Shown: piece after piece, positions 6,155 through 37,355 of the stretch
Numbering within the stretch: position 1 is the stretch's first letter
How the letters are laid out: every line of letters starts with the position of its first letter
Assembly: GCF_019704315.1 (NCBI RefSeq)
Contig: NZ_AP024597.1
Coordinates: forward strand, 2,578,501 to 2,642,500
From: Stygiolobus caldivivus
Lineage (GTDB): Archaea > Thermoproteota > Thermoprotei_A > Sulfolobales > Sulfolobaceae
DNA length: 64,000 nt
Direction of reading: 5' to 3'
The notes under the pieces: generated by a model
The model's input: only the letters and a program-made list of their open reading frames with translations
Told to the model about the DNA's origin: nothing
The model's database searches: none
Translations under genes and position numbers: made by a program

Positions 6155-6281
6155 TGCCCACCCGGCCATAGTGGGCGGGCAACACCCGGACTCGTCTCGA
6201 ACCCGGAAGTTAAGCCGCCCACGTCAGAAGGGCCGTGGGATCCGCGAGGACCCGCAGCCCTTCTGAGCTGGGATGGGCATT
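6155..6281 (+). rRNA. rrf: 5S ribosomal RNA
   Basis: A 127-nt GC-rich island in an AT-rich setting with the conserved archaeal 5S blocks: GAACCCGGAAGTTAAGCC near 6199 and GAGCTGGGATGGGC at the 3' end. Helix I closes between TGCCCA (6155-6160) and TGGGCA (6274-6279), all six pairs Watson-Crick. It is not next to 16S/23S genes, which is the usual unlinked arrangement in Sulfolobales. A T-run at 6283-6288 probably ends the transcript. The exact ends are uncertain by one or two bases. Confidence 0.97.
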
Positions 6282-7503: not shown

Positions 7504-8198
7504 GACTCATACTGGTAGACGTAGATGGAACTTTAACATTAGATAGGGATACGTATCTCCTAGAGTTAGATGCTATAAAAGCTTTAAGGGAGATCCAGAA
7601 AAGTGGGTTTAAAGTGGGTATTGTTAGCGGTAATTCTTATCCGGTACTAAGAGCGCTCTATACCTATCTAGGTTTTAATGGGGGGATAGTGGCTGAAAAC
7701 GGATGCGTAGTGTATTATGAAAAACTATATGAAGTGTGCGAGAAAATAAATAAAGATTTAATAGCTGAATTTGAAAGATTATTTAACGTAAAAGGAAGCT
7801 GGCAAAACGTGTACAAATGTTGCGATTTGACGTTTACTCCTCCTTATCTGACTAATGAAATGGTAAAGTGGGCGAAAGGTAGAGGTCTGTATATTAGAAC
7901 TAGTGGTTATGCGATACATGTTTCTAAGTCTAAAAAGGGAAAGGGAGATGGAGTGAGGTTCTTAATCTCCCTTTTAGGTGTGAGTAAAGGTGATGTAATA
8001 GGCATAGGGGATTCTAGCACAGATATAGAGTTTTTGGAAGAGGTAGGTTTTAAGGTAGTGGTAGGAAATGGAGAAGAGGAAGTAAAAAAATTAGGAAACT
8101 ATATAACTAGGGAGAAAAGTGGAAAAGGAGTAGTGGAGTTTGTGAATAAATTAATTAAAGGTGATATAGATGGAGGAATTAGAGGAGCTGGTATATAA
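7500..8198 (+). CDS. Phosphoglycolate phosphatase, archaeal type
   Basis: A 232-residue HAD-superfamily phosphatase of the archaeal phosphoglycolate phosphatase/TA0175 group (Cof-type, subclass IIB). Motif I is VDVDGTLT (nucleophile Asp near residue 7), motif II is VSGNS, motif III the Lys in [10 protein letters not shown], and motif [13 protein letters not shown]. It would dephosphorylate 2-phosphoglycolate or a related small phosphoester. It starts with TTG overlapping the HD gene stop and overlaps gltX by 29 nt, so the three genes appear to form one coupled operon. Confidence 0.88.
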
Positions 8199-9879
8199 AT
8201 ATGCATTACAAAACGCAGTAAAACATGATGGTAAAGCTAATGTAAACGCCGTAGTTAGTAAAATCTTTTCGGAAAGAGGAGATTTGAGGTCTAGAGCCAA
8301 GGAGATCGTCGAACTAACTAAGAAAATAGTGGATAAGGTAAATTCGATGAGTATTAACGACCAGATAAACGAGCTTAAGGAAAAATACCCAGAGATGCTT
8401 GAGGAAAAAAAGAAAGAGGAAACAGTAAAGAAAACGCTCCCGCCAATTTCAGTTAAAGGGTCACTAGTTACGCGATTTGCTCCTAACCCGGACGGTCCGT
8501 TACATTTAGGAAACGCTAGGGCTGCAATAATTTCCTATCAGTACGCCTCGATGTATAATGGGAAATTTATCCTCAGGTTTGATGATACTGACCCTAAGGT
8601 AAAGAAACCTATTAGAGAGGCTTATGATTGGATAAGGGAAGACTTAAAATGGCTAGGCATAAAGTGGGACTTAGAAGTTAGAGCCTCAGCTCGTTTAGAG
8701 ATTTATTATAAATATGCTAGGGAACTTATTCAGAAAGGACATGCTTATGTAGACACGTGTAAAGAAGAGGAGTTTAAGGAGAAGAGGGATAAGGGCGAAC
8801 CTTGCCCTAACAGGCTGAGAGATGCTTCCTATAATCTTGATTTATTCGAGAAAATGTTACAAGGTGAATTTAAAGAGGGAGAGGCTGTAGTTAGGTTAAA
8901 GACAGATCTAACCCTACCAGATCCGTCCCAAAGGGACTGGGTATTGCTTAGGATTATAGATGTAAAAGCTAATCCTCATCCTATTGAAGGTGATAAATAC
9001 TGGTTATGGCCTACCTATAATTTTGCCAGTGCGATAGATGACCACGAGCTTGGTATAACACATATTTTTAGGGGGAAAGAACATGCAGTTAACGCAGAAA
9101 AACAGAAATGGGTATATAACTACCTGAGATGGACCTACCCTGAAGTCCATGAATTCGGTAGGCTCAAACTAGAAGGATTTATGATGAGTAAATCTAAGAT
9201 TAGAACAGCATTAGATAGAGGATCTGGTATAGATGACCCGCGGCTACCTACACTAGCAGGGCTAAGGAGGAGAGGTATTTTACCTGATACTGTGAAAGAA
9301 ATAATCATTACGGTAGGTCTTAAAGTTACTGATGCCACTATAAGTTTTGATAATATAGCTTCTATAAATAGGAAAAAGCTGGATCTAACAGCTAAGAGGC
9401 TGATGTTTGTCCCCAGCCCTAGGGAGTTTGAAATCGAATTACCAGATAAAATGACCGCTAAGATCCCATATCACCCTTCAGACCCGTCAAATTATCGTGA
9501 AATTACTGTAAGTCCCCACGATAAGGTAGTGATCGATTCTGAAGACGCCAAAGAAAAAGTCCTCAGGTTAATGGAGCTCTGTAACGTGGTAGTTGAAGGT
9601 GATAGACTAATCTATCACAGTAGGAGTGTTGAGGATGCTAGGAAAATAAATGCTAAAATTGTACAATGGACTAAGAAGAGCGAAGCTGTGGATATAGTAG
9701 TTTATATTGCGGATCCTAATTCAGGGATAAGAGAAATTCATGGGTTAGGAGAAAAATCAATAGCCCAGCTTAGAGAGAATGATATAGTCCAGTTTATTAG
9801 GTTTGGTTTCGTTAGAGTAGATAAGAAGGAGGAAGAAGGTAATAGAGTAAAAATTCATGCTATATTTTCACATGAGTAA
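8170..9879 (+). CDS. gltX: Glutamyl-tRNA synthetase
   Basis: A class I synthetase (569 aa) of the archaeal/eukaryotic GluRS type. The HIGH-like motif is [10 protein letters not shown], preceded by [10 protein letters not shown]; the KMSKS-like motif is [10 protein letters not shown]. Residues 1-95 form the helical N-terminal extension and the C-terminal part is the all-beta, GlnRS-like anticodon-binding domain, as expected outside bacteria. In organisms without GlnRS it may also mischarge tRNA-Gln for later amidation; I cannot see the amidotransferase here. The ATG at 8170 lies inside the preceding gene. Identification is secure. Confidence 0.96.
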
Positions 9880-9880
9880 G

Positions 9881-9890
9881 TTTTTTAACC
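9881..9890 (+). promoter_or_regulatory. Box A of the eL8/L7Ae gene
   Basis: TTTTTTAACC centred near 9885, just after the gltX stop. Adding 26 nt places the transcript start at about 9911, i.e. a leader of roughly 31 nt before the ATG at 9942. The predicted start falls exactly at the base of the kink-turn-like element. Confidence 0.6.
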
Positions 9891-9911
9891 TATTAGAAGT
9901 CATAACTTATT

Positions 9912-9941
9912 GCGTGACGAGCTTAGGAGGAGGATGAACGC
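9912..9941 (+). promoter_or_regulatory. Kink-turn-like leader with embedded ribosome-binding site (putative L7Ae autoregulatory site)
   Basis: The leader can fold as a kink-turn: stem GCGT (9912-9915) with ACGC (9938-9941), a 3-nt bulge GAC (9916-9918), then GA (9919-9920) opposite GA (9936-9937) for the tandem sheared pairs. The far stem is weak. The purine run AGGAGGAGG (9925-9933), a strong Shine-Dalgarno sequence, sits in the apical part and would be affected by folding. L7Ae binds kink-turns, and control of its own mRNA through such a leader has been reported in archaea. The fold here is read by eye. Confidence 0.6.
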
Positions 9942-10322
9942 ATGTCAAAACCAACTTATGTAAAATTCGAAGTTCCGCAAGATTTGGCAGAGAAGGTATT
10001 GGAAGCTGTTAAAAAAGCTAGGGAAACCGGAAAAGTTAAGAAAGGTACTAATGAGACTACTAAAGCAATAGAAAGGGGCCAAGCAAAACTAGTTGTTATA
10101 GCTGAAGATGTTCAACCAGAAGAAATAGTAGCTCACTTGCCTCTACTTTGTGAGGAAAAAAAGATTCCGTATGTATATGTTCCCTCTAAGAAATCGCTAG
10201 GAGAAGCTTGTAACCTTCAAGTTGCAGCAGCTGCGGCGGCTATCATAGACCCTGGAGAAGCTAAAGAGATGGTAGATGAAATAATAAAGAGGGTAGAAGG
10301 ATTAAAAGGCCAATCAAGTTAA
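9942..10322 (+). CDS. rpl7ae: 50S ribosomal protein L7Ae (eL8)
   Basis: A 126-residue kink-turn-binding protein: a ribosomal protein that is also a core component of archaeal C/D and H/ACA guide RNPs and RNase P. The family signature is clear: [26 protein letters not shown], the [13 protein letters not shown] strand and the basic/acidic C-terminal helix. The start ATG at 9942 has a strong GGAGG 9-13 nt upstream and has its own leader and promoter, unlike the coupled genes before it. It is not grouped with rps28e/rpl24e as in many euryarchaea. Likely autoregulated by its leader. Confidence 0.96.
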
Positions 10323-11574: not shown

Positions 11575-11661
<87 letters not shown>

Positions 11662-36404: not shown

Positions 36405-37355
36405 ATGCCAACGGGAAACATGGTGACATTCGACAGAGGCTCATTTACTGGTACCATTGATTATGATTTCTTTATAAATCCAATTAAACTTGGAGCGTCA
36501 GAGAAAGAATTTAATTATGTTATAGACTTAGATAATAAACCTGAGAAAGTCTATGTAATATTAAACATAGAGAGGAACAAAAACGTAGACCCGAAATGGA
36601 GGTTATGGCTAAATGACTTCTCGCTAACTAAAGAGTTCAGACCTAATATCGAAGTTGAAGACGGGGTTCATAAGATCTCGTCAATTATCTATGATATTTC
36701 ACCTCTAGTTAAACAGGGGAGGAATGAATTTCTTATAGCGTATAGGGGAATACATGAAATAACGTTAGAAAGTATTGGGCATGTAGTATTTTATAAAGCG
36801 GAGAAGTTTGAAACCAGATATGACCTGATGGCAGGGGTGCTAATCCTTAAACCGGGTGATGAATTAAAATTTGACTGTTTTGGGGAGTGTCACCTTGTGG
36901 CTAAAAATAATGGAAAAGACGCCAGATTACTAATAGACGATTATCAGGTTTCCGGAGAGAATGATATTGAGGAAGTAAGGTTAAACAAACACGGAAATAT
37001 ATATGTAAAATTTATCTCATCAGAGAAGTCTAAATCATTAGCTTATATATACAACTTTTATAGTATTAACTACAAAATTCCAACGATTGACCTAGAGGTT
37101 AATACTCAGTTAGACGATCAGGGAGTTAATATTTCAATTAAAAATCTAAGCGAGGTTGAACTAGATAAAATAATAGTTAACGTCCTCCTAAATGGGCTCT
37201 CGATCAACTATAAGATGTTCAATAATATTGAGTCCCTACGCTCTCTGGATTTCAAAGTAGCACTACCGCCAAATAGAAAAGGGAACTTATTGATCAGAGT
37301 CGTGGGGGTGAAAAGCGGGTTTAGGAAAACTTTTGATAAGTCTGTTATAATATGA
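36405..37355 (+). CDS. Conserved hypothetical beta-rich protein
   Basis: A 316-residue soluble protein I do not recognise. It is rich in beta-strand patterns: an N-terminal FDRGSFTGTIDYDFF region, a central LKPGDELKFDCFGECHLVAKN strand pair with two Cys, and a C-terminal Ig/CARDB-like repeat (IDLEVNTQLDDQGVNISIKN and LNGLSINYKMFNNIESL). No signal peptide or membrane helix. The frame is open further upstream but the ATG at 36405 is the first start downstream of the opposite GTPase gene; box A-like ACTTTATTTTT lies about 26 nt before it. It overlaps the convergent ubiA gene by 11 nt. Confidence 0.7.
   Translation: MPTGNMVTFDRGSFTGTIDYDFFINPIKLGASEKEFNYVIDLDNKPEKVYVILNIERNKNVDPKWRLWLNDFSLTKEFRPNIEVEDGVHKISSIIYDISPLVKQGRNEFLIAYRGIHEITLESIGHVVFYKAEKFETRYDLMAGVLILKPGDELKFDCFGECHLVAKNNGKDARLLIDDYQVSGENDIEEVRLNKHGNIYVKFISSEKSKSLAYIYNFYSINYKIPTIDLEVNTQLDDQGVNISIKNLSEVELDKIIVNVLLNGLSINYKMFNNIESLRSLDFKVALPPNRKGNLLIRVVGVKSGFRKTFDKSVII

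Follow-up and report, generated by a model that had tools for sequence, protein, structure and literature searches.

The closest described counterpart of the element reported here lies in the 5' leader of l7ae in S. acidocaldarius, where a kink-turn (k-turn) binds L7Ae and represses translation (Daume et al. 2017; PMC5539422). In the published model a 3-nt bulge, GAU, is flanked on its 3' side by two G.A pairs and a stem of 4 bp and on its 5' side by a single G-C pair, and the Shine-Dalgarno sequence is 5' of the bulge. Binding of L7Ae was detected by EMSA and was lost in a G.A mutant, mutants of the Kt-n strand gave higher beta-galactosidase, and repression of GFP in E. coli was relieved by Kt-n and Kt-b mutants; the in vivo effect in S. 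acidocaldarius was modest, at 1.6-2.1-fold. The legend to figure 1 of that paper gives 1297690 as the l7ae transcription start. For Archaeoglobus fulgidus, a crystal structure of the l7ae leader with L7Ae has been determined and in-line probing performed, and this RNA was shown to fold only on binding; the polarity of the k-turn within its hairpin varies between archaeal species (Huang et al. 2019; PMC6298567). A eukaryotic parallel is the leader of yeast L30e: this member of the L7Ae family reportedly represses its own expression by binding a k-turn in its transcript, and it controls splicing in addition.

Experimental Procedures

The window is the whole stretch of DNA that was analyzed, 64,000 nt (NZ_AP024597.1, positions 2,578,501-2,642,500) of the 2.96-Mb genome of Stygiolobus caldivivus, a member of the Sulfolobaceae; coordinates below count from its first base. 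The l7ae leaders of the class were sampled at 138 loci, and families, genera and leaders are referred to by f, g and L numbers. Covariation was tested with one leader per genus in 37 non-Sulfolobaceae genera, and additionally with shuffles within families and within genera; these tests do not fully correct for relatedness. K-turn-like hairpins were scanned with the pattern NNNN-GA-C...G-NNN-GA-N'N'N'N', requiring a perfect 4-bp stem, with 20 first-order Markov sequences as controls.

The l7ae Locus of Stygiolobus caldivivus

The sequence TGCGTGACGAGCTTAGGAGGAGGATGAACGCATG occupies 9911-9944, immediately 5' of an ORF at 9942-10322. The product of this ORF is L7Ae, as judged by NCBIfam TIGR03677 (186 bits against a cut-off of 135), and its closest solved structures are L7Ae from ribosomes and box C/D complexes. 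On the 5' side lies an archaeal glutamate--tRNA ligase gene (gltX, 8170-9879), and the 62 bases between the two genes hold a TATA-like element and the leader element, as follows.

9881-9890, + strand: TATA-like promoter element TTTTTTAACC, at the start of the intergenic region after gltX, placed by the spacing of its TTAA to G9912
9912-9941, + strand: predicted 30-nt 5' leader, entirely k-turn hairpin, with its start put at about 9911-9912 by the published S. acidocaldarius start
9942-10322, + strand: l7ae (eL8) gene, 126 aa, with the GTNETTK recognition helix present; matches TIGR03677 and was aligned to solved Sulfolobales L7Ae chains

The distance from TTAA to G9912 is 27 nt, compared with 26 nt to the published start in S. 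acidocaldarius. We located that start in our own sample: genome G042 (leader L088) has the l7ae GTG start codon at 1297720, and the first G of GCGTGACGAAAAAGAAGGAGGATGAACGCT falls on 1297690. From the coordinate match, the GTG codon 30 nt after 1297690 and the match in sequence, G042 is very probably the strain used in PMC5539422. Because the published start falls on the first G of the k-turn in G042, a leader consisting almost wholly of k-turn (30 nt, starting at the first k-turn base) is already published for S. acidocaldarius, and the minimal form of about 31 nt that a preliminary description of this DNA had singled out as notable is not new.

Two RNA genes were noted nearby. A 5S rRNA gene lies at 6158-6276 on the + strand (Rfam RF00001, 65.9 bits), and a tRNA-Arg gene at 11575-11661 on the - strand, between a glycosyltransferase ORF and a DNA polymerase ORF. 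ARAGORN assigns the latter the anticodon CCG; the sequence reads CU-UCG in the anticodon loop followed by about 12 extra bases, and on that basis the gene probably encodes tRNA-Arg(UCG) with a short intron.

Anatomy of the Leader Element

As RNA, positions 9912-9941 read GCGU-GA-C-GA-GCUUAG-GAG-GA-G-GAU-GA-ACGC, followed by AUG, and divide into the following parts.

9912-9915, + strand: 5' strand of the NC stem, GCGU, partner of 9938-9941; compensatory GCGC/GCGC in genus g6
9916-9917, + strand: Kt-n GA (G2n A1n), matching the published Kt-n strand, mutation of which abolished L7Ae binding in S. acidocaldarius
9918, + strand: C of the single C-helix pair, partner of G9932; C-G in 37/37 genera and a single G-C in the published model
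9919-9920, + strand: second conserved GA, opposite GA 9930-9931; n-strand of a putative second k-turn core, lost in genus g6
9921-9926, + strand: apical loop GCUUAG, where most other families have an inner helix (CC/GG) that is absent in Sulfolobaceae
9926-9933, + strand: Shine-Dalgarno run GGAGGAGG, within the hairpin
9927-9931, + strand: GAG-GA, the 3-nt bulge and GA of the putative second core, exactly left over by the inner-helix register of 37 genera
9932, + strand: G partner of C9918; C-G in 37/37 genera
9933-9935, + strand: 3-nt bulge GAU (L1-L3), identical to the published bulge
9936-9937, + strand: Kt-b GA (G1b A2b); in the published work mutation of the Kt-b GA relieved reporter repression
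9938-9941, + strand: 3' strand of the NC stem, ACGC, directly abutting AUG

The k-turn is formed by the NC stem GCGU/ACGC, the tandem sheared GA/GA pairs (9916-9917 with 9936-9937), the bulge GAU and a sole C-helix pair, C9918-G9932. It has the 3-nt bulge followed by tandem G.A/A.G pairs of a standard k-turn, its C-helix comprises only one C-G pair, as in the published element, and it encloses the Shine-Dalgarno sequence. The preliminary description had proposed a k-turn at this place, and the element is real; its parts, though, had been assigned with the geometry inverted. A GAC bulge had been drawn in the 5' strand where the bulge is GAU in the 3' strand, GA 9919-9920 had been set opposite GA 9936-9937, whose true partner is 9916-9917, and GCGU/ACGC, the NC stem, had been taken for the canonical one. 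What had been listed as a weak point, an outer stem that pairs badly, is a product of this drawing, and the window element corrects the polarity of the fold.

The likeness to the 5' UTR k-turn of S. acidocaldarius l7ae (saci_1520) extends to the orthologous gene, the GAU bulge, the G.A pairs, the GCGU/ACGC stem, the single C-G pair, the enclosed Shine-Dalgarno sequence and the 30-nt leader. The two differ in the apical loop (AAAAGAA in S. acidocaldarius, GCUUAGGA in the window) and in the start codon (GUG versus AUG). The A. fulgidus 5' UTR k-turn (PMC6298567) is comparable to the window element, being a weak k-turn in the leader that is folded by the cognate L7Ae, which conceals the ribosome-binding site; its sequence is unlike that of the window element. 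ViennaRNA, one of the programs that do not model k-turns, predicted an open leader at 75-80 °C and -4.7 kcal/mol at 37 °C; an open leader at high temperature would agree with the published finding that folding of the k-turn requires protein. As an element, the window k-turn is ordinary and of a kind already known.

Within its own genome the element at 9912-9941 occurs once, a search of genome contigs for the exact 30-mer found no match outside that genome, and we found no Rfam family covering the element. Perfect 4-bp k-turn hairpins are found in the window at the rate of chance (2 observed, 1.5 expected from first-order Markov sequences); a k-turn hairpin enclosing GGAGG occurred in 0/20 random sequences, and the one at 9912-9941 encloses GGAGG and ends at the start codon. 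The window's only other perfect 4-bp k-turn-like hairpin is at 36932-36968 on the + strand, in keeping with the chance rate.

Conservation of the K-turn in Sulfolobaceae

GCG[T/C/G]GAC and a following GATGA were found at the same place in 28 of 31 Sulfolobaceae leaders. Assuming a start at the first G of the k-turn, the predicted leaders are 29-33 nt long, and the spacing to the TATA element is kept. The all-k-turn leader is the standard arrangement in this family and not an oddity of one species. Loss of the stem and GA elements in close relatives had been named beforehand as an observation that would count against the k-turn; both are kept. Genus g6 (L097, L098, L117) has GCGC-GA...GA-GCGC, a compensatory change of the stem from U-A to C-G. 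Stems of GCGG/ACGC (L102, L118) and GCGU/UCGC (L113) reflect the variable 3n:3b position, as in other k-turns, and L179 has the GA and GAU-GA with a weak stem. In genus g8 (L105, L119) the k-turn is lost, with the Shine-Dalgarno sequence present and both GAU-GA and GCGUGAC gone; the leader k-turn is therefore dispensable in some relatives.

The same leaders bear on the polarity of the fold. The inverted drawing makes GCGU/ACGC the C stem and treats GAC 9916-9918 as the bulge; it pairs GA 9919-9920 with 9936-9937 and assigns the NC stem to the inner stretch. This can be drawn because GACGA, which supplies the second GA, is present in 26 of the 31 Sulfolobaceae leaders, and the polarity is one used by other archaea (PMC6298567). 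As the outer stem is common to both drawings, only the inner part discriminates between them. There, the inner stem of the inverted drawing is paired in 5.6% of cells, as against 97.2% for the register with the bulges in the 3' strand (37 genera). Genus g6, moreover, has GACC instead of GACGA and is without the second GA, yet retains the stem, the Kt-n GA, the GAU and the Kt-b GA, so that it can form the published fold but not the inverted one, and the published mutants (PMC5539422) fit the opposite polarity. On the register counts and genus g6 we reject the inverted polarity, which we regard as very improbable, and keep the register with GAU as bulge.

A Probable Translational OFF Switch

Outside the Sulfolobaceae, the outer stem covaries across the 37 genera with z = 4.8 (relatedness not fully corrected), a value reached in 0/2000 shuffles, and shifted registers score lower. 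An alternative account takes the conserved leader as no more than a strong Shine-Dalgarno sequence near the start site and denies the fold any part in regulation. GGAGG is indeed conserved, and the Shine-Dalgarno sequence with the AUG accounts for part of the 3' strand; left unexplained are the conserved GCGUGA of the 5' strand, the compensatory changes in the stem, the register-specific covariation and the published mutants (PMC5539422). We give this account hardly any credence, less even than the inverted fold.

Identity, register, conservation and covariation of the element are established here, and we are confident in reading 9912-9941 as the kink-turn of the Sulfolobales l7ae 5' leader, acting as a translational OFF switch. 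This reading draws on a sequence plan shared with the S. acidocaldarius element, for which EMSA, beta-galactosidase and GFP assays are published, on the 28/31 conservation, the compensatory change in g6 and the covariation of the outer stem, and on the fact that the encoded protein is L7Ae. The preliminary suggestion that L7Ae binds the k-turn of its own leader and hides the ribosome-binding site agrees with what EMSA, point mutants and reporters have demonstrated in S. acidocaldarius (PMC5539422). We infer that the switch is functional in Stygiolobus caldivivus and that transcription starts at or next to G9912. The mRNA would then begin with the hairpin alone as its leader. At growth temperature the free RNA would be open, with the Shine-Dalgarno sequence at 9926-9933 accessible to the ribosome, until free L7Ae in excess of its rRNA and sRNA targets bound GCGU-GA-C...G-GAU-GA-ACGC. 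Bound L7Ae would close the hairpin, the C-helix and loop taking up the Shine-Dalgarno sequence and the stem lying directly against AUG, and L7Ae synthesis would stop.

Two Possible K-turn Cores in the Leaders of the Class

Nearly all families have GACGA followed downstream by GATGA (for example 24/24 f10 leaders and 15/15 f8 leaders), a combination that is rare or absent in f3, f9 and f16; the second GA is present in all sampled leaders of f2, f4, f5, f7, f8 and f10-f14. Outside the Sulfolobaceae, CC or CCC directly after GACGA pairs with a GG or GGG that is separated from GA-G-GAU-GA by 3 nt. When each of the 37 genera contributed one leader, pairing in this inner register was well above that of shuffled partners, with z = 4.2 in one draw and a mean of 4.6 with a minimum of 3.9 over 30 draws, relatedness again not being fully corrected. 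A second batch of leaders alone, only partly independent as some of its sequences had been examined earlier, gave z = 3.2 (p = 0.0025). Inner registers with a bulge of 0, 1, 2 or 4 nt instead of 3 had lower covariation, and the register one step outward (n+0, b-1) scored highly only through containing the same helix.

In a MAFFT alignment the whole structure was paired in 72.8% of cells (59.4% when shuffled), both sides had changed in 48 cells (25.8 when shuffled), and the covariation score was 0.340 (0.139 when shuffled), above all slid versions and matched in 0/500 shuffles. Shuffles restricted within families gave p = 0.04 and within genera p = 0.02. Inner pair 4 occurs as A-U, G-C and U-A within genus g38 and as U-A and G-C within g55. 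The central C and G are invariant in 37/37 genera, an invariance partly built in by the choice of leaders for their cores. Between the two supported helices there remain 5 nt on one side (GA-C-GA) and 11 nt on the other (GAG-GA-G-GAU-GA), and the difference of 6 equals two 3-nt bulges. Most other families of the class appear to have two such asymmetric loops between supported helices, each with a 3-nt bulge and GA opposite GA; the window has no inner helix.

From this loop anatomy and the covariation we derive a tentative picture, to which we would give somewhat less than an even chance: l7ae leaders throughout the class could carry two stacked k-turn cores of like orientation separated by one C-G pair, with covarying helices on both flanks and the whole Shine-Dalgarno sequence inside, the family of the window having kept both GA sets with the inner core reduced to a loop, and f2 having apparently shifted the pattern. 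Applied to the window, two adjoining cores would be KT1 (GA 9916-17 with GAU-GA) and KT2 (GA 9919-20 with GAG-GA), the latter reduced in Sulfolobaceae to a k-loop that lacks the inner helix. Such a leader might take up a single copy of L7Ae or two, or its two sites might serve as alternatives to each other. The covarying outer and inner helices with exactly 5 and 11 nt between them, the strength of the inner register and the compensatory changes within g38 and g55, with the within-genus shuffle, argue for two cores. Against them stand the missing inner helix in Sulfolobaceae, the window included, the leaders of g6 and g30 with KT1 only, the GA-rich 3' strand, which doubles as the Shine-Dalgarno sequence and is conserved on that ground alone, and a possible clash of two L7Ae copies so close together. 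For the window element itself we consider two cores unlikely; should its second GA set have a role, it would be as a k-loop or by lengthening the C-helix.

The outer kink-turn is known; the putative tandem architecture is the new element of this analysis and an open lead. If it is true, many archaea of the class repress l7ae via a double k-turn in the mRNA, repression could respond to one or two copies of L7Ae, and an L7Ae sensor that works cooperatively or in two steps could be put to the test. A "double kink-turn module" with two neighboring k-turns for L7Ae has reportedly been described in euryarchaeal RNase P RNA by Lai and colleagues in 2017, to our knowledge the only precedent. Its two neighboring k-turns would resemble the tandem arrangement but belong to a non-coding RNA.

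Leaders L148 (CCUU/AAGG) and L170 (CCCU/AGGG) of genus g30 in f6 lack the second GA but retain the outer k-turn, and since the single-core leaders of g6 and g30 both keep it, the outer k-turn is the constant part. A frequent 3' strand in f2, f5 and f7 is GAU-GA-G-[GA]AU-GA, in which a second GAUGA overlaps AUG, and in five f2 leaders (L150, L154, L163, L164 and L173) a UGC or UAC that precedes GACGA could pair with GCA or GUA in codons 2-3 (AUGAGCAAG, AUGAGUAAA). We suggest that the f2 pattern appears shifted, with the start codon in the outer bulge and the outer stem drawn from codons 2-3; covariation of such a start-codon-overlapping outer stem in f2, f5 and f7 was not significant (z = 0.6). 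In leader L196 (genus g22), CUACGACCCGG...CGGGGAGGAGGAUGAGC, the outer GA has become UA and the inner core and helix remain, possibly making it an inner-only variant.
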